Shown: piece after piece, positions 8,654 to 45,459 of the stretch
Layout: every line of letters begins with the position of its first letter
Position numbering within the stretch: position 1 is the stretch's first letter
Assembly: GCA_947632155.1 (NCBI GenBank)
Contig: CANROF010000014.1
Span: 1 to 48,610 of the forward strand
Direction of reading: 5' to 3'
From: an uncultured Oscillospiraceae bacterium
Lineage (GTDB): Bacteria; Bacillota; Clostridia; Oscillospirales; Oscillospiraceae
Length of the DNA: 48,610 nucleotides
The notes under the pieces: generated by a model
Databases searched by the model: none
What the model saw: the letters and a program-made list of their open reading frames with translations, nothing else
Told to the model about the DNA's origin: nothing
Translations under genes and position numbers: made by a program

Positions 8654-8851
8654 TGTCGAAAAAGCCCTGACGGGCTTTTTCGACAAGGGGAACGTGCGGG
8701 AAATTTTCGCTGAATTTTGCGAAATTCAGCGAAAACTTCCCTGCTGTCGCCCTGCGCGCCGCCTACGGCGGCACTTGTGCGACAAAAGGGATTTTTTCCA
8801 AGGCACATGTCCTTGGAAAAAATATTGAATTTGAACTTTTTGACAAACTGA
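8654..8851 (+). repeat. Modular 3'-UTR hairpin element, copy 1 (complete)
   Basis: Four consecutive hairpins. H1: 14-bp stem 8654-8667/8672-8685, loop TGAC. Linker AGGGGAACGTGCGG. H2: 14-bp stem 8704-8717/8722-8735, loop TGCG, upper part CTGAATTT/AAATTCAG. Linker with CCTGCTG. H3: two-tier stem TGTCGC/GCGACA (8745-8750/8779-8784) enclosing GCCGCC-TAC-GGCGGC. Linker AAAGGGA. H4: 12-bp stem TTTTTTCCAAGG/CCTTGGAAAAAA (8792-8822), loop CACATGT. Then TATTGAATTTGA and TTTTTGACAAACTGA. No T-tract follows H1, H2 or H3, so the unit is not an ordinary terminator. Confidence 0.85.
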
Positions 8852-8946
8852 GGGGCCGCCTTTTGGCGGCCCCTGCGGATACATTGCTGCGCTTGACGGA
8901 AATTGGGCGGTGAAACGCGAGGGCGGGTCGCCGGGGACGGCGACCC
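8852..8946. repeat. Two short palindromic repeats with shared linker
   Basis: GGGGCCGCC-TTTT-GGCGGCCCC at 8852-8873 and GGGTCGCCG-GGGA-CGGCGACCC at 8925-8946, the latter followed by CCTAC. The linker GCTTGACGGAAATTGGGCGG at 8891-8910 resembles linkers at 12817-12830 and 12898-12912 and, inverted, at 13119-13144. Nothing else is visible in the convergent gap 8636-8988. Confidence 0.75.
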
Positions 8947-8988
8947 CTACTTTTTTACTTTTTTCCTCCCAAGCTCTATTTCCTGTTT

Positions 8989-9627
8989 TTATTTCACCTT
9001 GGAATACCCGAAGGTGTTGACAACGGCGTCGATGGGCTCGCCGTTTTTGCACATGGGGCACTCCGAGGGGGCGTAGGAGACGTAGTCCGGGATGGTGTTG
9101 GTGTCAAAGAGGGACACCACCTCCATGCCCTCGATGCTGTGGGTGGCGGCGTAGATGGCGGCGGCGCCCACAACGCGCCCGCCGTAATACTCCACGCTCT
9201 CCCGGCCCCGGAGGGCCGTCTTGCCGGTGGTCAGCGAGCAGGCCAGGATGAGGACGTGCTTGCCCTCCAGCATGAATTTGGCGTTGTCCCGGAAGATGAG
9301 CTCGCCCCGGCTGTTCAGCTCGCCCTTGCAGATATAGATGTTGCTGCCCTCGCTCAAGGACCGGCCTCCGGCTTTTGTCAGCTCCTTGGCAAGGCATGTG
9401 CCGATGACGCTGGTGCCGTCCATGCACAGGATCGTGTCCACCGGGAAGCGGCCCTTCACCTTTTCACACAGCTTGTGGGCCACGTCCTCGGCGCCCCGGA
9501 GGCTGTACTTCTGGGCGGTGACGTCGATAAAGTAGTTTATGTGGCTGTTTTGCGTGGCAAAATGGCCCTTGGCCGCCAGCAGCGGCAGGCCGCCGATCTT
9601 GAGCAAAGGAAAGAATTTAGGTTCCAT
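8989..9627 (-). CDS. Phosphoribosyltransferase-like protein (orotate PRT type)
   Basis: 212 residues resembling type I phosphoribosyltransferases. VDTILCMDGTSVIGTCLAKE corresponds to the first core strand/loop, and HVLILACSLTTGKTALRG to the PRPP-loop region (usual form VLVVDDvxTTGxT). The acidic pair normally present in that loop is replaced by ACS, so PRPP chemistry may be altered. The C-terminal SYAPSECPMCKNGEPID holds a CxxC that is not part of the core fold. Similar proteins are often annotated orotate phosphoribosyltransferase in Clostridia, but no pyr genes are nearby. ATG at 9627 follows AGGGGG at nine bases; a TTG two codons upstream is the alternative start. It is a single gene with its own promoter. 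Confidence 0.7.
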   Translation of the reverse strand: MEPKFFPLLKIGGLPLLAAKGHFATQNSHINYFIDVTAQKYSLRGAEDVAHKLCEKVKGRFPVDTILCMDGTSVIGTCLAKELTKAGGRSLSEGSNIYICKGELNSRGELIFRDNAKFMLEGKHVLILACSLTTGKTALRGRESVEYYGGRVVGAAAIYAATHSIEGMEVVSLFDTNTIPDYVSYAPSECPMCKNGEPIDAVVNTFGYSKVK

Positions 9628-9664
9628 ATCCAAAAACCCCCTGATCTGGTAGAATGATTACCTT

Positions 9665-9693
9665 ATTATAGCAGGAAAAACACGATTTTACAA
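9665..9693 (-). promoter_or_regulatory. Promoter of the PRT-like gene
   Basis: Minus strand TTGTAA (9688-9693), 17 bases, TATAAT (9665-9670) with an extended TGC directly before the -10 box. Confidence 0.75.
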
Positions 9694-9735
9694 CACACGA
9701 TCGCACATTATTGCGACAAATCGATAAAGCCGCCC

Positions 9736-9960
9736 TCACTCCCCGGGCCCCGGGGCGTGGACCTTTCGGGCGTTCCAGTTGTCCGCGGCGAGCTTCGCGG
9801 CCTCATAGAGCGTGGTCTGCCCGTCGTAGGAGATGGCCGAGGTGTGGGCGCCGCAGTCCAGGCACTGGATGTAGACGCACCAGCCGCCCTCCTCCTCAAT
9901 GCTCCCCACGCCCCCGCAGCAGGGGCAGTCCTCCAGGTAGATATTCTCAAGCCCGTCCAT
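9736..9960 (-). CDS. Lar-like small zinc-ribbon protein
   Basis: 74 residues with CPCCGG near residue 12, CLDCGAHT near residue 33 and a C-terminal EAAKLAADNWNARK. This is the layout of Lar-family/phage-type small zinc proteins (CPxCGG...CxxCGA...A...WNxR). In phage and some chromosomes Lar relatives modulate type I restriction; no restriction genes are in the window, so the function is open. ATG at 9960 is preceded by GGAGG at eight bases. It has its own promoter and is monocistronic. Confidence 0.75.
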   Translation of the reverse strand: MDGLENIYLEDCPCCGGVGSIEEEGGWCVYIQCLDCGAHTSAISYDGQTTLYEAAKLAADNWNARKVHAPGPGE

Positions 9961-9993
9961 GGCGTTACCTCCGTTTTCCGCGATTTGCAATTC

Positions 9994-10022
9994 ATTTTAC
10001 ACCATCCCGTCCCCCCTGTCAA
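9994..10022 (-). promoter_or_regulatory. Promoter of the Lar-like gene
   Basis: Minus strand TTGACA (10017-10022), 17 bases, TAAAAT (9994-9999), 34 bases upstream of the ATG. Confidence 0.75.
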
Positions 10023-10096
10023 GCGCGCCGCCCCCCGGGCGGCGGCGGGATGTCTCGCAAAATCCACAAAAAGTGGCCCGGTTTTTAAGGTTTGTT

Positions 10097-10125
10097 TTGA
10101 CAAATCGACGCAAAAATGCTATGAT
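10097..10125 (+). promoter_or_regulatory. Promoter of the polyphosphate:AMP phosphotransferase gene
   Basis: TTGACA (10097-10102), 17 bases, TATGAT (10120-10125), about 73 bases before the ATG. Confidence 0.8.
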
Positions 10126-10198
10126 AGGGCTGTGCGAAGGCGTATCCAATTTAAATCGCAAAAATATAATCAAATTATTTTGATTCGGAGGTGCTCAA

Positions 10199-11719
10199 AT
10201 GATTCTTGATTTCAAACGCGCCGACGACGGCCTTGATAAGGCCGCCCGGAACACTCGCATCGAGGCCATGCGGGCCGAGCTCGTGGGCCAGCAGCAGACC
10301 ATCCGGGACGCCAGACTTCCCGTGGTGGTCCTGCTGGAGGGCTGGGACTGCGCCGGGAAGGGCAACCTCATCCGGGAGCTCATATGCGAGATGGACCCCC
10401 GGTTTTTCAAGGTCGCCAGCTTCGGGCGGACCCCGGAATACGAGGAGCGCTACCCGTTCCTCAAAAAATTCTTCGACGTCCTGCCGGAGACAGGCAAGTT
10501 TCTCTTCATGGACACCGGCTGGATGGAGGACACGGTTGGCAAGTACCTGCGCCGGGAGATCTCCCGGGAGGAGTACGAGCGGCGGATAGAGTCCTGCAAC
10601 ACCCTGGAGCGGCAGCTCCGGGACAACGGGTATGTGCTCGTAAAGCTCTTTTTGCACATCTCCCGGGAGGAGCAGCTCCGGCGCATCACGGACCTCCGGG
10701 AAAACCGGGACACCCAGTGGCGCGTCTCCGGGGACGACCTCTGGCAGCAGCAGGAGTACAACCAGTTCATGCGGACCTACGACGAGTTCATGGAGGCCAC
10801 CTCCCAGACCGCGCCCTGGCATGTTCTGGACGGCGAGAGCCGGAAAAAGGCGCTTTTTGACGGCCTTGCGGCCATTACCGGCACCGTCCGGCAGGCCATC
10901 GCCCTGGGCCGGTATGAGGGCAAGCCCACCGGCCGCCAGTTCCCGCTTCGGGGCGGGCCGTCGCTGGCCGACTGCGATCTCTCCGCCACCATCGACCCCG
11001 ACAAGTATAAAAAGAAGCTGGCGCAGCTCCAGCGCAGGCTCTCGGAGCTCCACAACCAGATCTACCGGAAGAAGATTCCCGTGGTGATATGCTTTGAGGG
11101 CTGGGACGCCGCCGGAAAGGGCGGCAACATCCGGCGTCTGGCCTATCCCCTGGACCCCCGGGGCTTTGACGTCATCCCCATCGCCAGCCCCACCCCCGGC
11201 GAGAAGGCCCGGCACTTTTTGTGGCGGTTCTGGACGAAGCTCCCCCGCAGCGGCCACATCGCCATCTTCGACCGCACCTGGTATGGCCGGGTGATGGTGG
11301 AGCGCATCGAGGGCTTCTGCTCCGAGAACGACTGGAAGCGGGCCTACGGGGAGATCAACGAGTTTGAAAAGGAGCTCACCGACTGGGGCACCGTGGTGCT
11401 GAAGTTCTGGATAAACATCGACCCCGACACCCAGCTCGAGCGCTTCGAGGCCCGGCAGAACACCCCGGGGAAGGAGTGGAAGATCACCGACGAGGACTGG
11501 CGCAACCGGGACAAGTGGCCCCAGTACGCCGAGGCCATCGAGGAGATGCTTCAAAAGACCAGCACCGAGTACGCCCCTTGGTACATCATCGAGTCCGTGG
11601 ACAAAAAATACGCCCGCATCCGCACCCTCCAGATCGTCACCGACGCTTTGGAGAAGGCGGTGCAGGAGAACGTGGTGCGTGGGATCAAGAGCGCCCCGGC
11701 GGAGAAAAAGGAGAAATAA
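10199..11719 (+). CDS. pap: Polyphosphate:AMP phosphotransferase (two-domain PPK2 class)
   Basis: 506 residues made of two fused PPK2 P-loop domains. The first domain (about 12-240) has Walker A GWDCAGKG at 48-55. The second (about 265-490) has GWDAAGKG near 301 and the PPK2 lid/Walker B signature FDRTWYGRV near 357. Two-domain PPK2 enzymes transfer a phosphate from polyphosphate to AMP to make ADP; usually the C-terminal domain carries full catalysis. In domain 1 the equivalent FDRTWYGR is changed to FMDTGWMED, which suggests a degenerate, structural half. ATG at 10199 follows GGAGGTG. It is monocistronic, with a promoter at 10097 and terminator at 11735. No ppk1 or ppx gene is in the window. 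A role in energy salvage from polyphosphate is inferred. Confidence 0.92.
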   Translation: MILDFKRADDGLDKAARNTRIEAMRAELVGQQQTIRDARLPVVVLLEGWDCAGKGNLIRELICEMDPRFFKVASFGRTPEYEERYPFLKKFFDVLPETGKFLFMDTGWMEDTVGKYLRREISREEYERRIESCNTLERQLRDNGYVLVKLFLHISREEQLRRITDLRENRDTQWRVSGDDLWQQQEYNQFMRTYDEFMEATSQTAPWHVLDGESRKKALFDGLAAITGTVRQAIALGRYEGKPTGRQFPLRGGPSLADCDLSATIDPDKYKKKLAQLQRRLSELHNQIYRKKIPVVICFEGWDAAGKGGNIRRLAYPLDPRGFDVIPIASPTPGEKARHFLWRFWTKLPRSGHIAIFDRTWYGRVMVERIEGFCSENDWKRAYGEINEFEKELTDWGTVVLKFWINIDPDTQLERFEARQNTPGKEWKITDEDWRNRDKWPQYAEAIEEMLQKTSTEYAPWYIIESVDKKYARIRTLQIVTDALEKAVQENVVRGIKSAPAEKKEK

Positions 11720-11734
11720 TTTTTACCGCTTTCA

Positions 11735-11764
11735 CCCCCCGGGCCCGTCCCGGGGGGCTTTTTT
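11735..11764 (+). terminator. Intrinsic terminator after pap
   Basis: CCCCCCGGG, loop CCCGT, CCCGGGGGG (11735-11757), then C and six T. Confidence 0.9.
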
Positions 11765-11775
11765 CGGCAAGGCTA

Positions 11776-11804
11776 TTGCCGGTTGGGGCGAAATGGGGTA
11801 TAAT
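11776..11804 (+). promoter_or_regulatory. Promoter of the TtcA-like gene
   Basis: TTGCCG (11776-11781), 17 bases, TATAAT (11799-11804), 38 bases before the ATG. Confidence 0.8.
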
Positions 11805-11842
11805 ACTAATCAGCAAAAAAGCATCGGAGGGAGGCGCGGAGG

Positions 11843-12718: not shown

Positions 12719-13108
12719 GGGCCGGACACCGCGCCGGCCCGTCCCCCTCCACCGCTGTGTCTCCGTGTAACGCAGACAGGGCCGGCACGGTGTCCGGCCC
12801 TTACATTGGCGTGTGGCGTTGATTTGGGCGGGGCGCATTATCGAGGAATGGGCCGCCGTGGGCGGCGGCCCGTACAGCATAGAGGGAGGGTTATCGCGTC
12901 GATTTGGGCGGGCGCGTTATCAAGGAAATCGCTGGGAATGGTGATGCCTTCCGGAAAACGATAAACCCAATTCTCGCCGTAGGGGTCGCCGTCCCCGGCG
13001 ACCCGCGTCGCGATTATGAACACACAACCCCACAACGTGAAAACCGGTAATCTCGCTGTACGGGCCGTGACCGTAGGAAATGCCCTTGGGCACGCCCACG
13101 GCGGCCCA
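12715..13108. repeat. Cluster of short palindromic repeats in a 540-base gap
   Basis: Contains GGGCCGG/CCGGCCC (12719-12740), whose flank GTAG includes the upstream stop codon; an inverted relative at 12779-12800; GGGCCGCCG-TGGG-CGGCGGCCC at 12850-12871; GGGTCGCCG-TCCC-CGGCGACCC at 12983-13004; and a longer GGGCCG...CGGCCC pair at about 13060-13108. Linkers GATTTGGGCGGG occur twice (about 12821 and 12902), plus an inverted relative at 13119-13144. No ORF in 12719-13256 has coding character. The terminator of the next minus gene is at 13188. Confidence 0.75.
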
Positions 13109-13187
13109 TTCCCCCGATTCACCGCCCAAATTACGTCGAACGCAATACGTGTCGTGGGGGCCGCAAGCTTTCAGCTATCACTCCGCC

Positions 13188-13227
13188 AAAAAAACCGTGC
13201 CGCCGCGGGATGGGTCCCGCGGCGGCA
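13188..13227 (-). terminator. Intrinsic terminator of the GH32 gene
   Basis: Minus strand TGCCGCCGCGGG / CCCGCGGCGGCA (12-bp perfect stem, six-base loop) followed by CGG and seven T. Confidence 0.9.
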
Positions 13228-13256
13228 CTTTTTGAGAGGAATGATATGAAAAAGCT

Positions 13257-19322: not shown

Positions 19323-20036
19323 TCACCCGTTGCAGTTTACGGTGACGGCGTCGGAGATCGCGACGCTCCCGCTGACCAGCGCCTCCCACTGTTCCCGGGT
19401 CCCGGCGAAGTTTATCGTCTCCAGCGCCGGGGTATCCGCAAACGCGCTGTCGCCGATATGGGTCAGCGTGGACGGCAGCGACAGCTCCGTAAGCTCCGGG
19501 CAGTTCCAAAAGGCGCGGGTGCCGAGGCTCAGGACGCCCTCCGGGACCGTGAGGGACCGGATGCCGGAGCCGGTAAACGCGTCGGAGCCCACCTCCGTCA
19601 AGGTGGAGGGCAGGGTGACCCCGGTCAGGGCCGTGCAGCCGAAAAAGGTCATCTCCAGGCTCTTGACCCCCTCGGGCAGGTTTACCGTGGTGAGCCGGGA
19701 ACAGCTCTGGACGGTGTTGACCAGCTCCTCCACCGGCCCCAGGAGGGTGATCTCCCGCAGCGAGGCGCACATCGCGAAGGCCTGGGAATCGATCTTCTTC
19801 ACGCTGGGGGGAATCACCACGGAGGTGAGCGCGTCACAACCGTAGAAGGCGCCGACGCCGATGGACTCCACCGAATCGCCAAGCGTCAGGCTCTCCAGCT
19901 TCAGGCAGTAAGAGAACGCCTGGGAACCGATGGAAACAAGGCTATCCGGAAGAGTCAGCTCCTCGACGGCGTTATAATGGCTGAAGGCGTCGCTGTTGAT
20001 GGCGGTGATGCCCTCCCCGATCACAAGCCCGGTCAC
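19323..20036 (-). CDS. BspA-like leucine-rich repeat part of a frameshifted FecR protein
   Basis: Encodes about nine to ten LRR_5/BspA-type repeats of 22-23 residues, with recurrent L-P-x-S/G-x-x-x-I/L-G-x-x-A-F (SLVSIGSQAFSYCLKLESLT, SVKKIDSQAF, TLTHIGDSAF), ending in a short cap. Such repeats usually bind ligands on the outside of the cell. The apparent GTG at 20036 has no ribosome site. Upstream of it the same frame reads YRTQ, which joins the FecR protein's WDDAPWG if one G is removed from a seven-G run (20051-20057). I therefore take this as the C-terminal domain of the gene at 19972-21633, not as an independent gene. Confidence 0.75.
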   Translation of the reverse strand: MTGLVIGEGITAINSDAFSHYNAVEELTLPDSLVSIGSQAFSYCLKLESLTLGDSVESIGVGAFYGCDALTSVVIPPSVKKIDSQAFAMCASLREITLLGPVEELVNTVQSCSRLTTVNLPEGVKSLEMTFFGCTALTGVTLPSTLTEVGSDAFTGSGIRSLTVPEGVLSLGTRAFWNCPELTELSLPSTLTHIGDSAFADTPALETINFAGTREQWEALVSGSVAISDAVTVNCNG

Positions 20037-21633
20037 CTGGGTGCGGTACTCCCCCCCAGGGGGCGTCGTCCCAGTTCAGCTCGTCCAGGCCCGCGAACTC
20101 CGGCGTCACGGTGAGGACCCCGCCGGCGCTGAGGCTCCAGCCGGTGCCGGAGGCGATGGCGTTGGGGTCCGTCGGTTCCGGGCTTTCGGACAGGCCCTCC
20201 CCGCCGTAGCGGGCGCCGAGGGGCAGGTACACATACTCCGTCATCGCCCCGGTGCCGAAGCCCAGGGTCGTCTGGTAGAAGAATACCATCACCCTGCCGT
20301 CGCCGGTCACGGTGAAGTCCACCTCATCCAAATTGACCGTGTCCACATGCTCCCAGCCTCTGGAGGTGATGTAGTCCCCGAAGTCCTCCGCCGCCAGGGC
20401 GTCCTTGATGGCCTGACGGATCTCGCTCTCCGTGCCGTCCATCACGTCCGTCAGGGTCAGCCGCTCCCCGGTCATGAGGTCCAAAACGTAGTGGGTGCTG
20501 GAGAACCAGGGGCGAGTGGCGTTGGCGTCGTACTCCTGGAAAGCCATGTCCACGGTCGCCATGCCGCTGGCGGGGAATCCCGCCGACGTCGAATAGTTGC
20601 TGCTGTAGCTCCCCGGCCTCTTCCCCTCGGAGGCCAGGCTGCCGGTCCTGCTCACAAAATCCCGGGCCATATCGGCGAAGATGCCGTTGATGACCTCGAT
20701 CCCCGCGCCGGGGCCCTCAAAGATCGGCAGGTCGAAAAAGACGTTGGTGAAGACCCCGGTGGCCTCGGGGATTCGGACGATCTCGCAGCTCACGTTTCCC
20801 TGGCTGATTCTGGACACGAATTCCCCCTCCGGAAGGCCCTCCAGCGGGTCGGAGCCGGCGCCTCCCGGCGCCTCCGGGCCGTCCCCGCCGCCCCCGGCGT
20901 TCCCGGCGTCCCCGCCGTTTCCGGCGCTGATGCCAAGGCCGGCCAGCTTTTCGGAGACGTCCGGGTCCGTCCCGGCCTCCGCCAGTACAAAGTCCGGGAC
21001 GTCGCTCCCGTCAAAATCGCCGACGGTCACCGTGGGCTGGCCGTTTTTGACGCTGAGCCGCGCCGTCTGCCCCGCCGCCACCTGCTCCACCGCCGGGAGG
21101 ATGGCCCCGTCGGCCCTGGCGGTGCAGCGGACCTTGCCCTCGATGATGTAGACATCGAAGGTATCCCCGTCCACGGCCCGCACCCAGCCGCAGGTGCCCC
21201 GGACGGCCATGACCATGTTGGAGGACCGGATCTCCAGCGTCTCGTCCTCCTCCAGTGGCTTCGTCACGTTGAAAAAGAGGCTCCCGCGCTCAACCACCAG
21301 CTCCAGCGCGCGGCCGTCGCGGTTTATCTCCACCGCGCTGTCCTGGTCGAGCTTTGTAAGCTTGGTGTCGTCCAGGTTTATCCACCCGTAGCTTGCACGC
21401 TGGGTGCCCACGGAGTAGCCGTCAAAAAGGCTCATCCGCAGCTCCATGCCCAGCATGGACCGGACGGGCACGTCGGCCCCCTCGCCGTCGGTGACGGCCA
21501 CGGTCCCCTCCGCCCGCACAAGCCACATGGCCGCGGCCTTGTTGTCCCCGCCGGAGGCCGCCAGGACCACGATGAGCGCAACGGCCGCCAAAACCGCCGC
21601 CGCGGCTATGCCAACGATCACTTTCTTTTTCAT
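19972..21633 (-). CDS. FecR-domain membrane protein 1 (with DUF3298-like domain; frameshift into LRR)
   Basis: About 550 residues as read. One N-terminal membrane helix (about 5-28); extracytoplasmic FecR domain (about 36-205: MWLVRAEGTVAVTDGEG, then SYGWINLDDTKLTKLDQDS, MVMAVRGTCGWV and VYIIEGKVRC); Gly-rich linker; DUF3298-like domain (about 275-480; RLTLTDVMDGTESEIRQAI, YVYLPLGARYGGEG). It then starts an LRR cap (GTGWSLSAGGVLTVT...WDDAPWG) and loses frame at a seven-G run (20051-20057), after which GVPHPGDRACDRG is nonsense. The LRR continues in the next frame to 19323. A restored protein would be about 770 residues. ATG 21633 is preferred (GGAG ten bases upstream) over GTG 21642. Possible causes are sequencing error, mutation or slippage-controlled expression. 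Confidence 0.82.
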   Translation of the reverse strand: MKKKVIVGIAAAAVLAAVALIVVLAASGGDNKAAAMWLVRAEGTVAVTDGEGADVPVRSMLGMELRMSLFDGYSVGTQRASYGWINLDDTKLTKLDQDSAVEINRDGRALELVVERGSLFFNVTKPLEEDETLEIRSSNMVMAVRGTCGWVRAVDGDTFDVYIIEGKVRCTARADGAILPAVEQVAAGQTARLSVKNGQPTVTVGDFDGSDVPDFVLAEAGTDPDVSEKLAGLGISAGNGGDAGNAGGGGDGPEAPGGAGSDPLEGLPEGEFVSRISQGNVSCEIVRIPEATGVFTNVFFDLPIFEGPGAGIEVINGIFADMARDFVSRTGSLASEGKRPGSYSSNYSTSAGFPASGMATVDMAFQEYDANATRPWFSSTHYVLDLMTGERLTLTDVMDGTESEIRQAIKDALAAEDFGDYITSRGWEHVDTVNLDEVDFTVTGDGRVMVFFYQTTLGFGTGAMTEYVYLPLGARYGGEGLSESPEPTDPNAIASGTGWSLSAGGVLTVTPEFAGLDELNWDDAPWGGVPHPGDRACDRGGHHRHQQRRLQPL

Positions 21634-21657
21634 TTTTCCCACGCTCCTTGCGCGTTC

Positions 21658-21759
21658 TTATCCCGCGAAGTCCTCCGGCAGGAAGGATTCGCCCATGTAT
21701 TTTTGAAAATGGATATTGTACCCGTTGAAATCCGTGGTATAAGCGCCGCCGATGCTCAT
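21658..21759 (-). CDS. 33-residue small ORF coupled between two FecR genes
   Basis: The ATG (21757-21759) overlaps the TGA of FecR gene 2 in an ATGA arrangement and has GGAGG nine bases upstream. It ends with TAA at 21658, 24 bases before the ATG of FecR gene 1. The product begins MSIGGAYTTDFNGYNIHFQK and ends GESFLPEDFAG. It is aromatic-rich and acidic toward the end, with no membrane segment. No family is recognised. The strong ribosome site and perfect overlap argue for translation; it might be a small regulator of the FecR/cyclase system, a degraded gene remnant, or a coupling ORF. Confidence 0.5.
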   Translation of the reverse strand: MSIGGAYTTDFNGYNIHFQKYMGESFLPEDFAG

Positions 21760-23261
21760 CGCCGCGGGACCTCCGTGGAAGCCTGGGGCCCGGCCAGCGG
21801 GTCCGGGCCCTCGCCGCCGTAGCGGGAGGACAGGGGCAGGTAGAAAGTGCTGCCCTCCTCTAAATTGGACAGGCCGCCGCCCAGCCTGGAGAAGTCAAAG
21901 TCGATCCTTATCTCGTTCCCTGAAAACGACCAGTCCAGAGTGGAAAGGTCCATGCTGTCCACGTTTTCCAGGGGAAGCCGCGGGCCGTAGGCCGTCTCGT
22001 AGATGGCGGCCTTGATGGCCTCCCGGGCCTCCTGGTCCGTGCAGCCCATGAGCTCCGGGATGCCCAGCTTCTCCCCCGTTCCGGCGTCGAAGGCCAGCGT
22101 GGACGTGGTGGAGTAGTGCCCGCCGGCGGTCCGGCCGTCATTATAAACATATAGACCGTTCAGGATGATAAGGCCCTGGCGGTTATCGTTCACGCTGAAC
22201 TGCTGGCTGCTCTCGTACACCTCGAGGTCCGTGTCGGGGAATTCCTCAATGTGCATGTCGATGTCCCGGCTCCTGACCAGGAACTCCTGGAGCAGCGTGT
22301 CCATGTACGCGTTTATGTTCTCCGCCACGGCCCCGGCGCCGCTGAAATAGGGGTAGGTGAAGGTCACGTGGGGCAGCTCCTGGGCCAGGTCGGGCACCGC
22401 CTGCTTCATGACATACGTAAGCCCGTCCTGGCTGTCCCCGTCCTCCGGCCCGTCGTCCGCGCCGGGAGGCACATCGCCGCCGGAGGGCGCGTCGCCGCCG
22501 TCCTCCGGGCCCGCGGGGCCGCCGGAGGGCTCTCCGGGGGCGTCCCCGGCGTCCATGCCGATGGAGGCCAGCTTTTCGGAGACATCCGGGTCTTCCCGGG
22601 CCTCCTCCAGGACAAATTCCGGTATCTCGCTCTTTTCAAAGCTCCGGACGGCGACGGCGGGCTGGCCGTCTTTTATGCTGAGCCGCGCCGTCTGGCCCGC
22701 CGACACCTGCTCCGTGGCGGGGAGCACGGCGTCCGCGGTCCTGGCGGTGCAGCGGACCTTGCCCTCGATGATGTAGACGTCGAAGGTATCCCCGTCCACG
22801 GCCCGCACCCAACCGCAGGTGCCCCGGACGGCCATGACCATGCTGGAGGACCGGATCTCCAGCGTCTCGTCCTCCTCCAGGGGCCTCGTCACGTTGAAAA
22901 AGAGGCTCCCCCGGTCAATCGCCAGCTCCAGCGCGCGGCCGTCGCGGCTTATTGTGACCGAGCTTTCCTGGTCAAGCTTCGTAAGCTTGGTGTCGTCCAG
23001 GTTTATCCACCCGTAGCTTGCACGCTCAGTGCCCACGGCGTAGCCGTCGTACAGCCCCAGGCGCAGCTCCATGCCCGCCATGGACCGCACTGGGACGTCT
23101 TTACCCCCGCCGTCGGTGACGGCCACGGAGCCCTCCGCCCGCACAAGCCACATGGCGGAGGCCCTGTTCTCTTTTCCCCCGGCCAGCAGCGCCGCGGTCA
23201 GTATCCCCGCCGCCAGAAGCACCGCCGCGCCGGCGATGAGGAGGATGCGTTTCTTCTTCAT
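21756..23261 (-). CDS. FecR-domain membrane protein 2 with DUF3298-like domain
   Basis: 501 residues. N-terminal membrane helix (about 5-28), FecR domain (about 34-205) nearly identical to its two neighbours (SYGWINLDDTKLTKLDQESS, LFFNVTRPLEEDETLEIRSS, RGTCGWVRAVDGDTFDVYII), Gly/Pro/Asp linker (about 240-275), and a DUF3298-like domain (about 285-485; HVTFTYPYFSGAGAVAENIN, YLPLSSRYGGEG). DUF3298 domains are known from RsiV, where they bind lysozyme; ligand binding here is inferred. ATG 23261 has GGAG upstream and lies 18 bases after FecR gene 3. The stop overlaps the 33-codon ORF. Confidence 0.85.
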   Translation of the reverse strand: MKKKRILLIAGAAVLLAAGILTAALLAGGKENRASAMWLVRAEGSVAVTDGGGKDVPVRSMAGMELRLGLYDGYAVGTERASYGWINLDDTKLTKLDQESSVTISRDGRALELAIDRGSLFFNVTRPLEEDETLEIRSSSMVMAVRGTCGWVRAVDGDTFDVYIIEGKVRCTARTADAVLPATEQVSAGQTARLSIKDGQPAVAVRSFEKSEIPEFVLEEAREDPDVSEKLASIGMDAGDAPGEPSGGPAGPEDGGDAPSGGDVPPGADDGPEDGDSQDGLTYVMKQAVPDLAQELPHVTFTYPYFSGAGAVAENINAYMDTLLQEFLVRSRDIDMHIEEFPDTDLEVYESSQQFSVNDNRQGLIILNGLYVYNDGRTAGGHYSTTSTLAFDAGTGEKLGIPELMGCTDQEAREAIKAAIYETAYGPRLPLENVDSMDLSTLDWSFSGNEIRIDFDFSRLGGGLSNLEEGSTFYLPLSSRYGGEGPDPLAGPQASTEVPRR

Positions 23262-23279
23262 ATTCCATACGCTCCTAAC

Positions 23280-25919
23280 TTAACCGATATAGCCCTCCAG
23301 GGCCGCAAAAAGGCCGTCTGTCTCCATAAGGCCCACGCAGGTGACGGTGTCGCCGCCGTTCTCCCGCCGGAAGCCCACCTCCGTGTCCGGGAGGGTGAGG
23401 GTGTCGGCGGTGGTCAGCGCCCCGGAGGCGTTTATGTACATGTACTCCCAGGCGGTTGACCTCTCCACGTACACCTCGCCGCCGTAGATCCAGGCGCTCT
23501 TGCGGTTGGCGCCTATGAGGGTGGAGCGGGCCTCGCCGCCGGACATGTAAACGAGGTAGGTCTGCACGGGCCGGACAAAGGCGTCCGCCCCGGCGTCATA
23601 TTTGCCGCACACCACCAGCGCCGCCAGGTTCCCGTCCATGGAGAAGAGCCTTGCCCGGCCCGTGGGGACGGTGGAGCCGTCGGTGGAGGGCACGGAGTCG
23701 GCGATGACGCGCCGGATCTCCGCCTGGAGCTTTGACGCCTCGTCGGCGGTGGGCTCCACGGGCTCCCCCGTGAAGAAATCGCCCAGCTCCGGCGCCGGGC
23801 CGCCGGCGCCCCAGTCCGCCTGCCACCGGGAGCTCAAGGGCAGCTCCACCTCCACGTGCTCCGTGTCGGACTCCAACGTCACCTGGTGGTTGTGGATGAC
23901 CGCCACCGCCACGCCCTTTTTGATGTAGAAGTCCAGGGTGTCCACGGGCAGCGCCGCCAGCACGTCCTCCCGGGCGGCGGCGAAGGCGGTGTCCCTCAGC
24001 TTTTCGCGGATGGCCGCCCGGATGCCGCTGACGCCGCCGTCCGCCGCCTCCGAGAGCTTCAGCCTCTCGCCGGTGGTCAGGTCAAAGGTGTAGTAGGTAT
24101 CCGGGAACACGTCCAGGTCGAACTGCAGGTTCTTGTCCTCGTGGTGGACGGACACGCACAGGACGCCCTCCATGGGGAAATCCACCCGGGTATCGTAGCT
24201 GTCCACGTAGGAGTCGTCCAGTTGCCGCTGGTCGTCGTAGGTCCGGCCAAAATAGGCGTCGTAATCGGCGGTGTATAGCGAGAGATGGCCGTCCGCGAGC
24301 TGCCGGAAATAGCGGTTGACCGCCTCGATTCCGGCGTAGGGGCCGGTGAGGACGGGAATCTGGTAGTAAAGCCGCTCTACCCGGTGGGTGATGCCCTCCG
24401 GCCGGAGGGTCCGAATCTCCCATTGGATGCCGCCGCTGCTGCCGGACAGGGCCGTCTCGCCGCCGGACGCGCCGCCGTTCTGCCACCTCTGGCCCAGGGG
24501 AATCTCCACCTGGAACGAGCCGCGGCCGTACTTATCGCCCAGGCCCACGCTGGAGAAGAGCGGCTCCACCAGGATGCTGTCGGACCGCGGGCAGAAAGAG
24601 AGGTCCTCCAGCCACACCGGAGAGAAGTAGGACGGCTGGAACTCCGCGCCGTATTGGGTCTGGCGCACGGCCGCGATGACGGCGTCGCAGATCTCCTGGT
24701 CGGTGCCGTCGGCGAATTGGCGGATCGTCAGCCGCTCCCCGGTGGTCAGGTCAAAGACGAAATACTGCGGTATGATGTCGTACTCGTTCAGGGGGTCGGG
24801 GTTTTGGATGTTCGGGTAGACGGATACGCACACGATGTTCTCCAGCGGGAAGTCCACCGCCACGTCCTTCCGGATGTTCAGGGAGACGGCGCCGGAGCCG
24901 TAGAGCCGGTCAAGGTCCTCGTCGTAGCCGGGGGGACACTTACTGTTTAAAAACCCGTCGGCCACCGTCTTCAAAAAGTCGTTGATGGCGGCGATTCCCG
25001 CCTCGGGGCCCTCGAAGACCGCCAGCTCATAGTAGATATAGCGGGCCTCGTGGGTGAGATCGGGCCGCTGGGTGCGGATGGTCCAGGTGATGTCCCCGTG
25101 GGCGCCGTTCAGGCCGTCGTCGTCATCGTCCCGGGTGTCCCAGTCGATCTCCTCCACGGAGCCGCCGGGGCCGTCCGGGCCCTCCGGGCCGCCGGAGGAT
25201 GTCCCGCCCCCGGTTACGCCCAGCGCGGCCAGCTTTTCGGAGAGGTCCGGGTCCGCCCCGGCCTCCGCCAGCACGAAGTCCGGGACGTCGCTTTCGCCGA
25301 AGGTCCCGACGGTTATCGTGGGCTCGCCGTTTTTGACGCTCATGCGGGCCGTCTGGCCCGCCGTCACCTGCTTCGTGGCGGGGAGGATAGCCCCGTCGGC
25401 ATTGGCCGTGCAGCGCACCGTGCCCTCGATGATATACACCTCGAATGTCTCCGCGTCCACCGCCCGCACCCAGCCGCAGGTGCCCCGGATGGCCATGACC
25501 ATACTGGAGGAACGAATTTCCAGCGTCTCGTCCTCCTCCAGGGGCCTCGTCACGTTGAAAAAGAGGCTCCCGCGGTCAACCGACAGCTCCAGCGCGCGGC
25601 CGTCGCGGCTTATTGTGACGGAGCTGTCCTGGTCAAGCTTCGTAAGCTTGGTGTCGTCCAGGTTTATCCACCCGTAGCTTGCCCGCCCGGTGCCCACGGC
25701 GTAGCCGTCGTAGAGTCCCAGGCGCAGCTCCATGCCCGCCATGGACTGTACCGGGACGTCCTCACCCTCGCCGTCGGTGACGGCGACGGTCCCCTCGGCT
25801 TTCACCAGCCACATGGCCGCGGCCTTTCCGCCGTCCCCGCCGGTCAGCAGGACCGCGGCCGCGATTCCCGCCGCCAGTACGATCACGGCGGCTATGATCA
25901 AAATAAGCTTCCTTTTCAT
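23280..25919 (-). CDS. FecR-domain membrane protein 3 with two DUF3298-like domains
   Basis: 879 residues. Membrane helix (about 5-27), FecR domain (about 36-205), linker with Gly/Pro and an Asp run (about 230-265), then two successive DUF3298-like domains. Domain A is about 275-500 (YYELAVFEGPEAGIAAINDF, YFVFDLTTGERLTIRQFADG). Domain B is about 515-710 (YYQIPVLTGPYAGIEAVNRY, YTFDLTTGERLKLSEAADGG). A C-terminal region of about 150 residues (TADEASKLQAEIRRVIADSV...) has no recognised family. It is the longest FecR paralogue here. Its ATG overlaps the TGA of the HD-GYP gene. Topology: short cytoplasmic tail, large outer part. Confidence 0.85.
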   Translation of the reverse strand: MKRKLILIIAAVIVLAAGIAAAVLLTGGDGGKAAAMWLVKAEGTVAVTDGEGEDVPVQSMAGMELRLGLYDGYAVGTGRASYGWINLDDTKLTKLDQDSSVTISRDGRALELSVDRGSLFFNVTRPLEEDETLEIRSSSMVMAIRGTCGWVRAVDAETFEVYIIEGTVRCTANADGAILPATKQVTAGQTARMSVKNGEPTITVGTFGESDVPDFVLAEAGADPDLSEKLAALGVTGGGTSSGGPEGPDGPGGSVEEIDWDTRDDDDDGLNGAHGDITWTIRTQRPDLTHEARYIYYELAVFEGPEAGIAAINDFLKTVADGFLNSKCPPGYDEDLDRLYGSGAVSLNIRKDVAVDFPLENIVCVSVYPNIQNPDPLNEYDIIPQYFVFDLTTGERLTIRQFADGTDQEICDAVIAAVRQTQYGAEFQPSYFSPVWLEDLSFCPRSDSILVEPLFSSVGLGDKYGRGSFQVEIPLGQRWQNGGASGGETALSGSSGGIQWEIRTLRPEGITHRVERLYYQIPVLTGPYAGIEAVNRYFRQLADGHLSLYTADYDAYFGRTYDDQRQLDDSYVDSYDTRVDFPMEGVLCVSVHHEDKNLQFDLDVFPDTYYTFDLTTGERLKLSEAADGGVSGIRAAIREKLRDTAFAAAREDVLAALPVDTLDFYIKKGVAVAVIHNHQVTLESDTEHVEVELPLSSRWQADWGAGGPAPELGDFFTGEPVEPTADEASKLQAEIRRVIADSVPSTDGSTVPTGRARLFSMDGNLAALVVCGKYDAGADAFVRPVQTYLVYMSGGEARSTLIGANRKSAWIYGGEVYVERSTAWEYMYINASGALTTADTLTLPDTEVGFRRENGGDTVTCVGLMETDGLFAALEGYIG

Positions 25920-28288: not shown

Positions 28289-28307
28289 CCAAAACTCTTT
28301 TTAAATA

Positions 28308-28571
28308 TTTTTTCCAAGGACATGCGCCTTGGAAAAAATCCCTTTTGTTTTGCGGAGTGTGCGGCCCTACGGGCCGTGCGCGGAGCAAAACAGCAGGGAA
28401 AATATTCTGAATTTCGCAAAATTCAGAATATTTTCCCGCACGTTCCCCTTGTCGGAAAAGCCCGTCAGGGCTTTTTCGACAAACTGAGGTGGTTTTTCGC
28501 TGAATTTCGCAAAATTCAGCGAAAAACCACCGCACATTCCCCTTTAAAATGGCCGCCACGCGGCCATTTTA
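28308..28571 (-). repeat. Modular 3'-UTR hairpin element, copy 2 (inverted, with an extra H1-H2 module)
   Basis: Read on the minus strand from the pepC stop: H1-like AAAATGGCCGC/GCGGCCATTTT (includes the stop codon), AAAGGGGAATGTGCGG, an H2 with TGCG loop, CCTCAGT, then H1 GTCGAAAAAGCCC-TGAC-GGGC (28449-28482), AAGGGGAACGTGCGG, an H2 with the CTGAATTT-TGCG core and new outer arms GAAAATATT/AATATTTTC, CCTGCTG, H3 (GTTTTGC/GCAAAAC enclosing CGGCCC-GTA-GGGCCG), AAAGGGA, and H4 TTTTTTCCAAGG-CGCATGT-CCTTGGAAAAAA (28308-28338). Confidence 0.85.
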
Positions 28572-30187: not shown

Positions 30188-31792
30188 ATGAAAAAAATGA
30201 GAAAAATTCTGGCGCTGCTTCTGGCCTTCGCGGCCATAGCGGCCCTGGCCGCCGGCTGCGGCGGCGGGGACACGGGCAAGGAGCCCGCCGGTACCCCCGA
30301 CCAGCCCCCGAAGCAGGACACCACCCCCGACACGCCGGACACCCCGGATGAGCCCGATACTCCGGATACGCCGGATATGCCGGATACGCCTGATACGCCG
30401 GACACCCCGGATACGCCGGACACTCCGGACACCCCCGACACTCCGGATACCCCGGGTACGCCGGATACTCCCGACACGCCCGACACCCCGGATACGCCCG
30501 ACACTCCGGATACGCCCGACACTCCGGATACGCCCGACACCCCGGATACGCCCGACACCCCGGATACGCCCGATACTCCGGATACCCCGGACACACCGGA
30601 CACGCCGGATACCCCGGACACACCGGACACGCCGGATACCCCGGACACACCGGATACCCCGAATCAGCCGGACACCCCCGACACACCGGACGTGCCCGAT
30701 ACACCGGACACGCCGGACGCACCCGACACGCCGGACCAGCCGGACACACCGGACACGCCCTCTCAGCCGGAGAATCCGCCTCAGCCGCCTCAGCCGGCGA
30801 CGCCGCCCCAGCCCGAGGAGCCCGCTCCCCCGGCGCAGATCCCCGACGCCTCCCAGGAGCTGCCCTCCAGTCCCGAGGCCGACAAGGTCCTGGATGACAA
30901 GTACGAGGACAAGACCGACGTGAACGCCAGCAACCAGGAGATGGAAAACGAGTCCGCGGCCCTCCAGAACACGCCCCCGGCGTTTTACGACTACAAGAAG
31001 GTCAGCCACCCCGGCACGGCGGTCAATGAGAAAAACAACGCCATTATCGACTACTCCAACGCCGCCGACGGCTACGTGATGGTCCTCTACAACGCCTCCA
31101 CCGACAAGCGCTTAAAGGCCCAGGTCAAGGGCCCCACCACTACATATCAGTACAATCTCACCGCCGGCGTCTGGGCGGCGCTGCCGCTGTCCGACGGCAA
31201 CGGCGAGTACTCCGTGGGCGTCTACGTCCACTCCGGCGAGGGCAACAAGTACGCCACCGCCTGCTCCCAGAAGCTGAGCGTCACCCTCACCGACGAGTTC
31301 GCGCCCTTCCTGCGCAGCAACCAGTACGTGGACTTTGAGGGCGCCGCGAACACCATAAATCAGGCCGCCATGCTCTGCCGCGGCGTCACGGAGCCCCTAG
31401 ACAAGGTGAAGGCCATCTACACCTTTGTTGTCGAGAACTTAAGCTACGACCACGACCGGGCCGCCAACGTCACCAGCGGCTATCTGCCGGTGCTGGACAG
31501 CGTCCTGGCCAACAAAAAGGGCATCTGCTTCGACTACGCGGCGCTGATGACCGGGATGCTCCGCAGCCAGGGCGTCCCCTGCAAGCTGGTGGTGGGCTAC
31601 GCCGGGACGGCGTACCACGCCTGGATCAACGTCTACTCCGAGAAGGACGGGTGGATCAACAACGCCATCTTCTTCGACGGCACCTCCTGGCAGCGGATGG
31701 ACCCCACCTTCGCGTCCTCCGGCAATCAGAGCGCCGACATCATGAAGTACATCGGCGACGGGCAGAACTACACCGTGAAATATATGTACTGA
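30188..31792 (+). CDS. Lipoprotein with Pro-Asp-Thr repeats and transglutaminase-like domain
   Basis: 534 residues. Lipoprotein signal (lipobox AAGC, Cys near 24), then a very long low-complexity P-D-T repeat (about 46-190), a Pro/Gln stretch, an alpha/beta linker, and a transglutaminase-like domain (about 380-534). The catalytic triad is visible: Cys in KGICFDYAALMTGML (near 445), His in AYHAWINVYS (near 476) and Asp in QRMDPTFAS (near 504). Such domains in Clostridia act as secreted cysteine proteases or cross-linking enzymes. The repeat probably spaces the enzyme away from the membrane through the cell wall. ATG follows TGGAGG. The stop is followed at six bases by a modular hairpin repeat. 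Confidence 0.88.
   Translation: MKKMRKILALLLAFAAIAALAAGCGGGDTGKEPAGTPDQPPKQDTTPDTPDTPDEPDTPDTPDMPDTPDTPDTPDTPDTPDTPDTPDTPGTPDTPDTPDTPDTPDTPDTPDTPDTPDTPDTPDTPDTPDTPDTPDTPDTPDTPDTPDTPDTPDTPDTPNQPDTPDTPDVPDTPDTPDAPDTPDQPDTPDTPSQPENPPQPPQPATPPQPEEPAPPAQIPDASQELPSSPEADKVLDDKYEDKTDVNASNQEMENESAALQNTPPAFYDYKKVSHPGTAVNEKNNAIIDYSNAADGYVMVLYNASTDKRLKAQVKGPTTTYQYNLTAGVWAALPLSDGNGEYSVGVYVHSGEGNKYATACSQKLSVTLTDEFAPFLRSNQYVDFEGAANTINQAAMLCRGVTEPLDKVKAIYTFVVENLSYDHDRAANVTSGYLPVLDSVLANKKGICFDYAALMTGMLRSQGVPCKLVVGYAGTAYHAWINVYSEKDGWINNAIFFDGTSWQRMDPTFASSGNQSADIMKYIGDGQNYTVKYMY
30326..30757 (+). repeat. Low-complexity P-D-T coding repeat
   Basis: Roughly 45 tandem nine-base units (CCG/CCC-GAT/GAC-ACG/ACC/ACT) with a few substitutions (Glu, Met, Gly, Asn-Gln, Val, Ala). 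Local runs of an 18-base higher-order unit suggest expansion by slippage or recombination. The array creates long open frames on the other strand. Confidence 0.92.
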
Positions 31793-31798
31793 ACTGGC

Positions 31799-31976
31799 TT
31801 GAAAGGCTGACGCCTTTCAATGCCAAGGGGAACGTGCGGACAAAAAATCTGAATTTTGCGAAATTCAGATTTTTTGTCCTGCTGTCGCCCTGCGCGCGCC
31901 CCGTTGGGGCACACTTGGGCGACAAAAGGGATTTTTTCCAAGGCACATGTCCTTGGAAAAAATATTGAATTTGAGT
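31799..31976 (+). repeat. Modular 3'-UTR hairpin element, copy 3 (complete)
   Basis: Starts six bases after the stop codon. H1 TTGAAAGGC-TGAC-GCCTTTCAA (31799-31820), AAGGGGAACGTGCGG, H2 17-bp stem (31840-31856/31861-31877) with CTGAATTT-TGCG core and outer arms ACAAAAAAT/ATTTTTTGT, CCTGCTG, H3 TGTCGCC/GGCGACA (31883-31924) enclosing GCCCC-GTT-GGGGC, AAAGGGA, H4 TTTTTTCCAAGG-CACATGT-CCTTGGAAAAAA (31932-31962), TATTGAATTTGA. Confidence 0.87.
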
Positions 31977-31978
31977 TT

Positions 31979-32007
31979 TTGACAAGCTGACTGGATCGCG
32001 TTATTTT
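31979..32007 (+). promoter_or_regulatory. Promoter of the pilus/secretion-like operon, at the end of repeat copy 3
   Basis: TTGACA (31979-31984), 17 bases, TATTTT (32002-32007), with the ATG at 32027 after CTGGAGG. The TTTTTGACAA segment is the conserved tail of the hairpin element. Confidence 0.65.
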
Positions 32008-37193: not shown

Positions 37194-37196
37194 ACC

Positions 37197-37209
37197 AACA
37201 ATCATTGTT
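37197..37209. promoter_or_regulatory. Palindrome at the P2 start site
   Basis: AACAATCATTGTT is a perfect 6+1+6 inverted repeat covering the expected start point of P2. Possible operator; no regulator assigned. Confidence 0.35.
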
Positions 37210-37231
37210 ATATACCGAAAGGAGCTTTCCC

Positions 37232-38563: not shown

Positions 38564-38569
38564 TCTGGC

Positions 38570-38689
38570 TTGAAAGGCCGTTCCGGCCTTTCAAGGCCAA
38601 GGGGAACGTGCGGTGTTTTTCCCGACGTACATGCCGCCGGGAAAAATATTGAATAATGAGCTTTCCGGGGCGGGCTTGGCGCCCGCCCC
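38570..38689 (+). repeat. Modular 3'-UTR hairpin element, copy 4 (reduced)
   Basis: Starts six bases after the glnA stop. H1 TTGAAAGGCCG-TTC-CGGCCTTTCAA (38570-38594), then GGCCAAGGGGAACGTGCGG, then directly an H4-like TTTTTCCC/GGGAAAAA (38616-38646) with a loop containing TACATG, then TATTGAAT. H2 and H3 are missing. A short palindrome GGGGCGGGC/GCCCGCCCC (38667-38689) follows. Confidence 0.8.
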
Positions 38690-38713
38690 TATCGCATTTG
38701 GGGGTGAAAACCC

Positions 38714-39244: not shown

Positions 39245-39314
39245 TACTAATATTCATTTACAAATACTTACTAAAATTGAAACCTCCTACCCCACAACAA
39301 GGACGTGATGGGAT

Positions 39315-43847: not shown

Positions 43848-43848
43848 T

Positions 43849-45327
43849 ATGGGAAAAGCTACCGGATTTATGGAATACAACCGGGAAAATAACGGCTCCG
43901 TGGAGCCCCTGGAGCGGATAAAGAGCTTCAACGAGTTCCATCCGCCCCTCTCCCGGGACGCCCGGATACGCCAGGCCGCCCGGTGCATGGACTGCGGCGT
44001 GCCCTTCTGCCAGTCGGGCATCGCCCTTGGCGGGGCGTTCACCGGGTGCCCCCTCCACAACATGGCCCCGGAGTGGAACGACCTTGTGTACCACGGCAAT
44101 TTTGAGGAGGCCTACAAGCGCCTGCGCAAGACCAACAACTTCCCGGAGTTCACGGGCCGGGTGTGTCCCGCTCTTTGCGAGGCGGCCTGCACCTGCGCCC
44201 TCCACGGGGACGCGGTGACGGTCCGGGAAAACGAGCTCTTTGTTGTGGAGAACGCCTACGCCTCCGGCATCGTCCGGCCCGACATCCCCAAGGTCCGCAC
44301 CGGAAAGCGCGTGGCGGTGGTGGGCTCCGGCCCCGCGGGCCTCGCCGCCGCGGACCAGCTCAATCACCGGGGCCACTCCGTGACGGTCTTTGAAAAGGCC
44401 GACCGGGTGGGCGGTCTGCTCATGTACGGCATCCCCAACATGAAGCTCCAAAAATCCGTCATCGACCGACGGGTGGAGCTGATGCGCGCCGAGGGCGTGG
44501 AGTTCAAGACAAACGCCGACGTCGGGCGCGACGTGGCCGCGGGGGGGCTGGCGGCGGTGTTCGACGCCGTGATCCTCTGCTGCGGGGCCAAAAAGGCCCG
44601 GGACCTGAAGGTCCCGGGGCGGGACGCCGGGGGCGTATACTTCGCCGTGGACTTTTTGACCTCCACCACCAAGAGCCTTCTGGACAGCAACCTCAAGGCC
44701 GGGACGTACATCTCCGCCCGCGGCAAAAACGTGGTGGTGGTGGGCGGCGGCGACACGGGCAACGACTGCGTGGGGACCTGCGTGCGCCACGGCTGCGCCA
44801 GCGTCACCCAGCTTGAGATGATGCCCCGTCCCCCCAAGGAGCGGGGGGAGAACAACCCCTGGCCCGAGTGGCCCCGGGTGGAAAAGACCGACTACGGCCA
44901 GCAGGAGGCCATCGCCGTCTTCGGACATGACCCGCGCCTTTACCAGCGCACGGTGAAGGAGATCGCGGCCGGGGAGGACGGGAATATAAAGGAGATCGTC
45001 ACCGTCTCCCTGATGCCCCGGAGTGAGAACGGCCGGACCGTGATGGTCCCGGTGGAGGGCTCCGAGGAGACGCTGCCCTGTGAGCTTTTGCTCATCGCGG
45101 CGGGCTTTGTGGGGACGGAGAGCTACATCCCGGAGGCCTTCGGCCTCGCCACCGACGCCCGGGGCAACATCGCCACCCACGAGGGGTTCCGCACCTCCCT
45201 CCCCAACGTCTTCGCCGCCGGCGACACCCGGCGCGGGCAGTCTCTCGTCGTCCACGCCATCGCCGAGGGCCGCGCCGCGGCCCGTCAGGTGGATGAATTC
45301 TTAATGGGATATACGAATCTTATTTAA
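43849..45327 (+). CDS. gltD: Glutamate synthase small subunit
   Basis: 492 residues. N-terminal two-cluster ferredoxin-like part: CMDCGVPFC, GCPLHNMAPEWN and CPALCEAACTCAL. FAD-binding GSGPAGLAAADQLNHRGHSV near 160, NADPH-binding NVVVVGGGDTGNDC near 300, and a C-terminal FAD segment NVFAAGDTRRGQSLVVHAI. It supplies electrons from NAD(P)H to the FMN/Fe-S centres of GltB. It starts one base after gltB, so the two are coupled. The stop is followed at six bases by repeat copy 5. Confidence 0.97.
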   Translation: MGKATGFMEYNRENNGSVEPLERIKSFNEFHPPLSRDARIRQAARCMDCGVPFCQSGIALGGAFTGCPLHNMAPEWNDLVYHGNFEEAYKRLRKTNNFPEFTGRVCPALCEAACTCALHGDAVTVRENELFVVENAYASGIVRPDIPKVRTGKRVAVVGSGPAGLAAADQLNHRGHSVTVFEKADRVGGLLMYGIPNMKLQKSVIDRRVELMRAEGVEFKTNADVGRDVAAGGLAAVFDAVILCCGAKKARDLKVPGRDAGGVYFAVDFLTSTTKSLLDSNLKAGTYISARGKNVVVVGGGDTGNDCVGTCVRHGCASVTQLEMMPRPPKERGENNPWPEWPRVEKTDYGQQEAIAVFGHDPRLYQRTVKEIAAGEDGNIKEIVTVSLMPRSENGRTVMVPVEGSEETLPCELLLIAAGFVGTESYIPEAFGLATDARGNIATHEGFRTSLPNVFAAGDTRRGQSLVVHAIAEGRAAARQVDEFLMGYTNLI

Positions 45328-45332
45328 CTGGC

Positions 45333-45459
45333 TTGAAAGGGCGTTGCCCTTTCAATGCCAAAGGGAATATGCCGGTCCCCTGCGGGCACGGCCCGCAGGG
45401 CCGCACACTCCGGGGACCTAAAAGGGCAAATTTTCAAGGCGCATGTCCTTGAAAATTTG
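45333..45459 (+). repeat. Modular 3'-UTR hairpin element, copy 5 (H2 missing)
   Basis: H1 TTGAAAGGGC-GTT-GCCCTTTCAA (45333-45355), AAAGGGAATATGCC, H3 GGTCCCC/GGGGACC (45374-45380/45412-45418) enclosing GGCCC...GGGCC with the same GCACACTCC bulge as copy 2, AAAAGGG, H4 CAAATTTTCAAGG-CGCATGT-CCTTGAAAATTTG (45427-45459). A further TTCGCGCC/GGCGCGAA hairpin follows at about 45470-45489. Confidence 0.82.

Follow-up and report, generated by a model that had tools for sequence, protein, structure and literature searches.

A probable family of IS1182-mobilised, BOX-like miniature elements carrying a conserved reverse-strand, RNA-like segment in an uncultured Oscillospiraceae bacterium and its relatives

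The window, i.e. the whole stretch of DNA analysed here, comprises 48,610 nt of an uncultured Oscillospiraceae bacterium (GCA_947632155.1, contig CANROF010000014.1, forward strand), taken from a genome of 2.50 Mb in 89 contigs (the own genome). It contains five copies of a dispersed hairpin element, of which copies 3, 4 and 5 begin 0-1 nt past a stop codon. An initial annotation had described five blocks in 3' untranslated regions (UTRs) with the module order H1-linker-H2-CCTGCTG-H3-AAAGGGA-H4, and all five were found where it had placed them, with corrections for three. Copy 2, taken as one inverted block, is correctly positioned but consists of a partial unit (28568-28483) followed by a complete one (28482-28296). 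Copy 4 retains H1, the linker and H4 but not the other modules, while copy 5 is correctly positioned but lacks the claimed H2 core and has a degenerate linker. The features are as follows, R1 being a covariance model built from 59 aligned copies.

8644-8652, forward strand: copy 1, direct repeat on the left, AGGGGCCGC, equal to one half of the hairpin further downstream
8654-8850, forward strand, structured strand reverse: copy 1, type A, complete element (R1 match 8653-8834), with H1 at 8654-8685, linker 8685-8699, H2 8700-8739, H3 8745-8784, H4 8791-8823 and right terminal repeat 8836-8850
8819-8846, reverse strand: promoter-like TTGTCA-N16-TATTTT, a consensus match only, which reads through H4, H3, H2 and H1 in reverse
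8851-8873, forward strand: copy 1, direct repeat on the right (8851-8859), with the host hairpin GGGGCCGCC-TTTT-GGCGGCCCC at 8852-8873
28296-28482, reverse strand: copy 2, complete unit, abutting the partial unit (R1 match 28296-28482)
28483-28568, reverse strand: copy 2, outer partial unit (hairpin, linker, H2, CCTCAGT), directly after the stop codon 28571-28569
31794-31989, forward strand: copy 3, type B, complete, starting 1 nt past the upstream stop codon and ending in GACAAGCTG
38565-38650, forward strand: copy 4, type B, a reduced form (H1-linker-H4) lying between glnA and a gene for an ANTAR-like regulator; its start, 38565, is 1 nt past the glnA stop codon
45328-45459, forward strand: copy 5, type B, with reduced H2, between gltD and amtB, its first base adjoining the gltD stop codon (45325-45327)

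The H4 core pattern occurs four times in the window against 0.01 expected from shuffles; the linker at up to three mismatches is not significant in the window alone (8 found, 5.6 expected). Across the own genome the exact linker occurs 90 times, compared to none in a reversed control, bearing out the dispersed nature proposed initially. The element measures about 180-270 bp, and no transposase is present inside its roughly 200 bp. For each of H1, H2, H3 and H4 several alleles exist, and these are found in many combinations. Two forms can be distinguished. Type A (77 of the 90 own copies) has an H1 of the form TGTCGAAAAAGCCC... and the ends CAGnYTGTCRAAAAA and TTTTTYGACARnCTG. Type B (the remaining 13) starts with CTGGC; ten of these start 0-1 nt past the stop codon of an open reading frame of at least 80 codons and 11 lie between forward genes, copy 5 of the window falling outside this count due to its degenerate linker. 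A protein-coding element was rejected, given that linker-to-AAAAGG lengths span all three frames (31/30/22). In some copies (e.g. L009, L019, L065, L067, L074, L080, L083 and L096) H3 contains an additional ~63 nt that harbour two further hairpins; the core of this insert is one sequence in two slightly different forms that track the H3 allele.

The exact linker is present in 22 of 60 relatives; 21 belong to the same genus, and the remaining one to a different family within the order. A search with R1, scoring at most 77 copies per genome, matched 31 of 34 genus genomes, often with at least 60 copies each. In an order-wide sample of 197 genomes, searched under strict filters with at most 13 copies scored per genome, R1 matches 25, of which 22 lie outside the genus; the positive genomes beyond the genus fall into 14 further genera, and the matches span six families if the own one is counted. 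Relatives outside the genus have in common the H3 core and an H4 with a CRCATGT-like loop, while the outer hairpins differ. As judged by eye, two such loci (L304, L316) have the same host hairpin on both sides. With a second model, R2, restricted to the 13 pairs of H4 read in reverse (H4'), a class-wide sample of 341 genomes gave only three single weak matches outside the order (E 4.6e-6 to 9.6e-4), a weak negative. A pattern scan of named genomes returned at least 81 matches; those listed are all in 'Lapin' gut metagenome-assembled genomes, 80 titled Oscillospiraceae and one Lachnospiraceae. We take 'Lapin' in these isolate names to mean rabbit. In the phage collection a single record matched partially, over 47 nt (E 9e-6); the plasmid collection gave none.

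The initial annotation knew of no named family of this kind. Consistent with this, no Rfam match exceeds threshold in the window, and four element-bearing loci likewise gave none at gathering score (best 29.7 bits compared to 40). The element was not found described in the main text of open-licence articles, supplements aside; it may already have been listed elsewhere, e.g. in PMC8040213 with its thousands of candidates.

To describe the structure, similarity filtering took 91 distinct copies down to 67, and eight more were dropped by hand to leave 59, copies with long H3 inserts being excluded. RNAalifold predicts 43 pairs on the forward strand, 29 of them with changes on both sides, and 46 pairs on the reverse strand, 27 with changes on both sides. 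The covariation score is matched by none of 500 shuffles on either strand, thus upholding the covarying stems first noted by inspection. Further pair types are matched by 23 of 500 shuffles forward and none in reverse; altogether, covariation beats all 500 shuffles in four of five measures forward and in all five in reverse.

While the structured, modular nature of the element is supported, the forward strand on which it had initially been read is not. For the same alignment, the consensus energy is -40.6 kcal/mol forward compared to -68.4 kcal/mol reversed, and 54 of 59 single copies fold better reversed, by a mean of 12.2 kcal/mol. Reversal turns A-C mismatches into G-U wobbles (208 mismatched cells are then G-U and 16 A-C). 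The effect is strongest in H3, which is better reversed in 44/44 type A and 14/15 type B copies: what appears forward as an 'internal loop' (GCGCGC/GCACAC) becomes the continuous helix GUGUGC/GCGCGC. In H2, the forward reading yields 20 distinct A-C events to 1 G-T (p 2e-5). Outside the genus, the H3-H4 parts fold better reversed at 50 of 53 loci (mean 5.1), compared to a mean of 0.4 (standard deviation 5.95) for 212 neighbouring windows. This set holds 53 of 57 loci, those lacking a recognised H4 (L182, L193, L314, L315) being left out; L188, which seems oriented wrongly, was kept and is among the three loci against the result. Hence, module order and loops are to be read on the opposite strand, i.e. 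H4', H3', H2', H1'.

This bears directly on the view taken by the initial annotation, that of a forward-strand 3'-UTR or intercistronic element whose hairpins stabilise or end the mRNA of the upstream gene. Type A neighbours in the own genome are oriented +/- in 25 cases, +/+ in 19, -/- in 9 and -/+ in 2, with one or both genes absent in 22. Outside the genus the pattern is as in the own genome (+/- 23, +/+ 15, -/- 7, -/+ 1, one-sided 7). The location at gene 3' ends is supported, as is the presence of many further copies in own and related genomes. The upstream gene is forward in 54/68 type A cases and in 43/52 outside the genus, and type B hugs stop codons, as would be expected of an mRNA element. 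Against this, the forward fold is worse in the 54 copies noted above, with H3 worse in 58/59, and the G-U/A-C asymmetry favours the other strand. Convergent sites are furthermore common (25/77 type A), with neither orientation favoured there. We therefore consider this explanation unlikely. It had also been stated that H1-H3 are not followed by a terminator T-tract. In copy 1, a consensus scanner calls H4 terminator-like on both strands, in addition to a six-pair stem at 8696-8710; these three calls in the copy 1 locus compare to 0.7 in shuffles.

The promoter-like TTGTCA-N16-TATTTT aims into the interior in 45 of 60 own copies. These 60, out of 90, are the copies with both ends recognised. 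It is called by the scanner in both loci scanned, the copy 1 locus having one such site compared to 0.1 in shuffles. The reverse strand may be transcribed from within the element.

The copies behave as non-autonomous mobile elements, a possibility the initial annotation had raised only as something to check. Exact flanking direct repeats of at least 10 nt border 30 of 60 own copies, the longest being 35 nt, compared to 0.8% of mismatched flank pairings. Seventeen of these 30 repeats fold below -6 kcal/mol, for example a 29-nt hairpin at L010 and a 35-nt one at L098. Presence and absence at glnA, amtB, lysA and argS were judged by eye from printed sequence. Orthologues of lysA are mostly element-free within 150 nt (exceptions seen are L408, of the own genome, and L415), the element is seen in 5/22 argS loci in both orientations, and a close pair of amtB loci (L353/L356) differs as TAA compared to TAA-element-TAA. 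The latter indicates that type B can insert with only a ~3-nt duplication.

An autonomous partner is suggested by insertion sequences (IS) of the IS1182 type. Matches to DUF772 occur in 16 of 34 genus genomes, and among 30 loci around such matches, five (L126, L128, L129, L130, L137) have both ends with 0 mismatches to the element pattern, while four more (L127, L138, L143, L147) have one element-like end. The five are complete IS of 1496-1511 bp, each with an exact 21-31 nt hairpin copy on either side. The partner IS yields matches to PF05598, PF13751 and PF01609; the two of the five transposases that were scanned score 380.8 and 340.4 bits against NF033551 (IS1182 family transposase, cut-off 270). 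Hence, the terminal repeats of the element match the ends of an autonomous IS, with target duplication seen in 30/60 copies of the element and in 5/5 IS. Several loci of the IS1182 type (L120, L134, L137, L140-L142, L144 and L145) have a further inverted-repeat motif, GGGGCTGTGAAAAAA / TTTTTTCACAGCCCC, nearby.

Where the initial annotation had suggested a search for a linked protein such as a RAYT transposase, the candidate is thus an IS1182-family enzyme, from an IS with ends that match the element. REP/BIME-type repeats (repetitive extragenic palindromes and their mosaics) spread by a RAYT (Y1) transposase would equally be high-copy, palindromic and extragenic, but a 15-nt end pattern in common with a DDE-type IS1182, and duplication of the insertion-site hairpin, are not known from REP elements. 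We consider this origin very improbable, although no search aimed at a RAYT gene was made.

In one own-genome locus (L082, contig C40, near 11111), the element lies in, and duplicates, the palindrome ATGTTTCACGTGAAACATCG, which resembles the chromosome-partition site parS. Such a target, along with hairpins and conserved loops that would suit a DNA-binding protein, could point to an element acting at the DNA level, either as cruciform or through hairpins bound by e.g. a nucleoid or recombination protein. A cruciform, however, engages both strands and leaves the strand asymmetry unexplained. Hence, we regard a DNA-level role as quite unlikely.

A stronger challenge comes from a purely selfish miniature inverted-repeat transposable element (MITE) devoid of RNA function, the arms of which are kept complementary by template switching (quasipalindrome correction) in replication, not by selection. 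The mobile features (direct repeats, ends shared with IS, hairpin copies beside the IS) are clear, and paired columns read forward switch nearly without wobble intermediates, as arm-to-arm copying would produce. BOX-type repeats have also been argued to be parasitic (PMC3049150). In contrast, arm correction is expected to be strand-neutral, yet H2 mismatches run 20 A-C to 1 G-T, and fixed non-Watson-Crick positions (G-U in H3', G-U/A-U in H4') are retained from copy to copy without being corrected. The strand preference is also seen outside the genus, and stems at the glnA site differ among loci yet stay paired. A purely selfish element is therefore possible but, in our judgement, doubtful.

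The glnA site belongs to a set of type B positions at nitrogen-assimilation genes. Past the glnA stop codon, ahead of the ANTAR-like gene, 10/20 related loci carry an element or a remnant of one; H2 stems at L320, L321, L328 and L338 differ yet stay complementary, while L318, L319 and L327 have reduced H1-H4 forms. The gltD / amtB interval contains the element in 4/20 loci, plus one remnant. That type B lasts, with its pairing, suggests selection at such sites. In other genomes the same intergenic sites (L330, after glnA; L359, before amtB) are occupied by a different repeat, the ends of which resemble TACTAATATCTA(A/T)TTAAA; it is also found in the L126 flank and looks like another miniature element.

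Taken together, we propose a family of IS1182-mobilised, BOX-like modular MITEs that carry a conserved reverse-strand, structured RNA-like segment, a reading which we put, on sequence analysis, at a probability of roughly 0.74. An IS1182-family transposase acting in trans would recognise the CAGnYTGTCRAAAAA...TTTTTYGACARnCTG ends, and insertion would target a palindromic hairpin that in many cases is a transcription terminator and that is duplicated in part or whole. Given the flanking repeats, the hairpin copies beside the IS and the published IS1272 model, the transposase presumably joins the element ends at the hairpin feet, with repair then duplicating the hairpin. The far-side terminator copy may make insertion tolerable; over 23 copies, the next 8 nt contain on average 3.3 T after the far hairpin copy and 1.9 after the near one (raw means). 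The interior would be kept as an RNA-like fold of the reverse strand, with H3' a continuous helix containing conserved G-U wobbles. Type B (ends CTGGC...) resides inside operons directly past stop codons, and would keep to one orthologous position across speciation, with its stems changing meanwhile. The sequence itself shows the common ends, the hairpin duplications, related loci free of the element, the covariation, the asymmetry between strands and the broad occurrence within the order. In contrast, movement by this IS, transcription of the reverse strand and a use of the RNA to either element or host are what we infer.

Several observations weigh against parts of this proposal. Regarding mobility, exact flanking repeats of 10 nt are missing from 30/60 copies, and of the 30 repeats present, 13 are hairpin parts or plain sequence that, taken alone, do not reach a folding energy below -6 kcal/mol. 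The ~3-nt duplication at a type B insertion is outside what the hairpin model explains. No intact IS1182 transposase was found in the own genome, the one DUF772 match lying in a 94-aa open frame, although the assembly is split into 89 contigs. Regarding the RNA, tandem neighbour pairs are mostly element-forward (45 forward compared to 17 reverse, p 5e-4), such that read-through would yield the less stable strand. This mostly opposite placement relative to tandem genes fits either a free-standing RNA or a tendency to keep a tight fold out of messenger RNA. Of the 60 own-genome copies, 15 lack the promoter-like site, which overlaps the end repeat and H4 in part, and in neither of the two loci scanned does the scanner class H1' as a terminator. 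Reduced forms fold about equally forward and reverse, and loss is also common at the type B sites. Finally, the H2 loop TGCG resembles the stable UNCG tetraloop in the forward orientation only, though one copy (L328) has this loop in reversed form.

The proposal can be extended to a mobile noncoding-RNA gene, moved by IS1182, with its own promoter, a conserved multi-hairpin RNA encoded against the direction of the neighbouring genes, and a hairpin at its end, that has spread order-wide beside terminators and become fixed and selected between glnA, gltD and amtB. We offer this more specific version tentatively, as possible rather than probable.

Individual aspects of the element are known from other systems. 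BOX elements of Streptococcus pneumoniae are modular and MITE-like, are present at 125 per genome, have ISSpn2 with similar ends as proposed mover, are enriched between convergent genes and are predicted to fold when transcribed (PMC3049150). The present element is, by description only, alike in being modular, high-copy and MITE-like, in having a proposed IS mover with similar ends, in its convergent-gene sites and in a fold predicted for its transcript; it differs in its covarying, strand-biased hairpin modules, its often-duplicated hairpin targets and a core found across several families of one order. IS1272 of Staphylococcus, from the same IS1182 family as the proposed autonomous partner, likewise chooses inverted-repeat targets by structure; it is reported to replace the stem-loop without duplication, with duplication of the whole stem-loop modelled as an alternative pathway (PMC5678879). 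In contrast, the five IS described here duplicate the stem-loop and have non-autonomous relatives with a structured interior. MITEs are short, have terminal inverted repeats, no transposase, target duplications and a stable predicted transcript structure, traits that the element has, whereas an interior conserved across families of an order exceeds the description in the consulted part of PMC10969869, the text of which contains no occurrence of IS1182. MITEs, modular BOX repeats and palindrome targeting by IS1182 are thus known singly. What is new, within the literature searched, is that they occur together, that this IS group duplicates hairpins and that the reverse-strand fold extends across the order.

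Other repeats are present in the window. A short hairpin, GTAGGGGTCGCC-GTCCCC-GGCGACCCGC, occurs three times (2761-2790, 8923-8950 and 12976-13006). A long 9/18-nt tandem repeat at 30322-30756 encodes PDTPDTPD in a lipoprotein-like gene, and 19972-25919 contains three tandem paralogous genes with a common region of ~300 nt at 79-85% identity.

The element appears to join three things that are usually separate: a high-copy miniature transposon, a transposase that targets and duplicates stem-loops, and an RNA-like interior kept across several bacterial families. If the reverse-strand RNA is made, it would constitute a mobile RNA gene, present at up to ~100 copies per genome in common gut bacteria.

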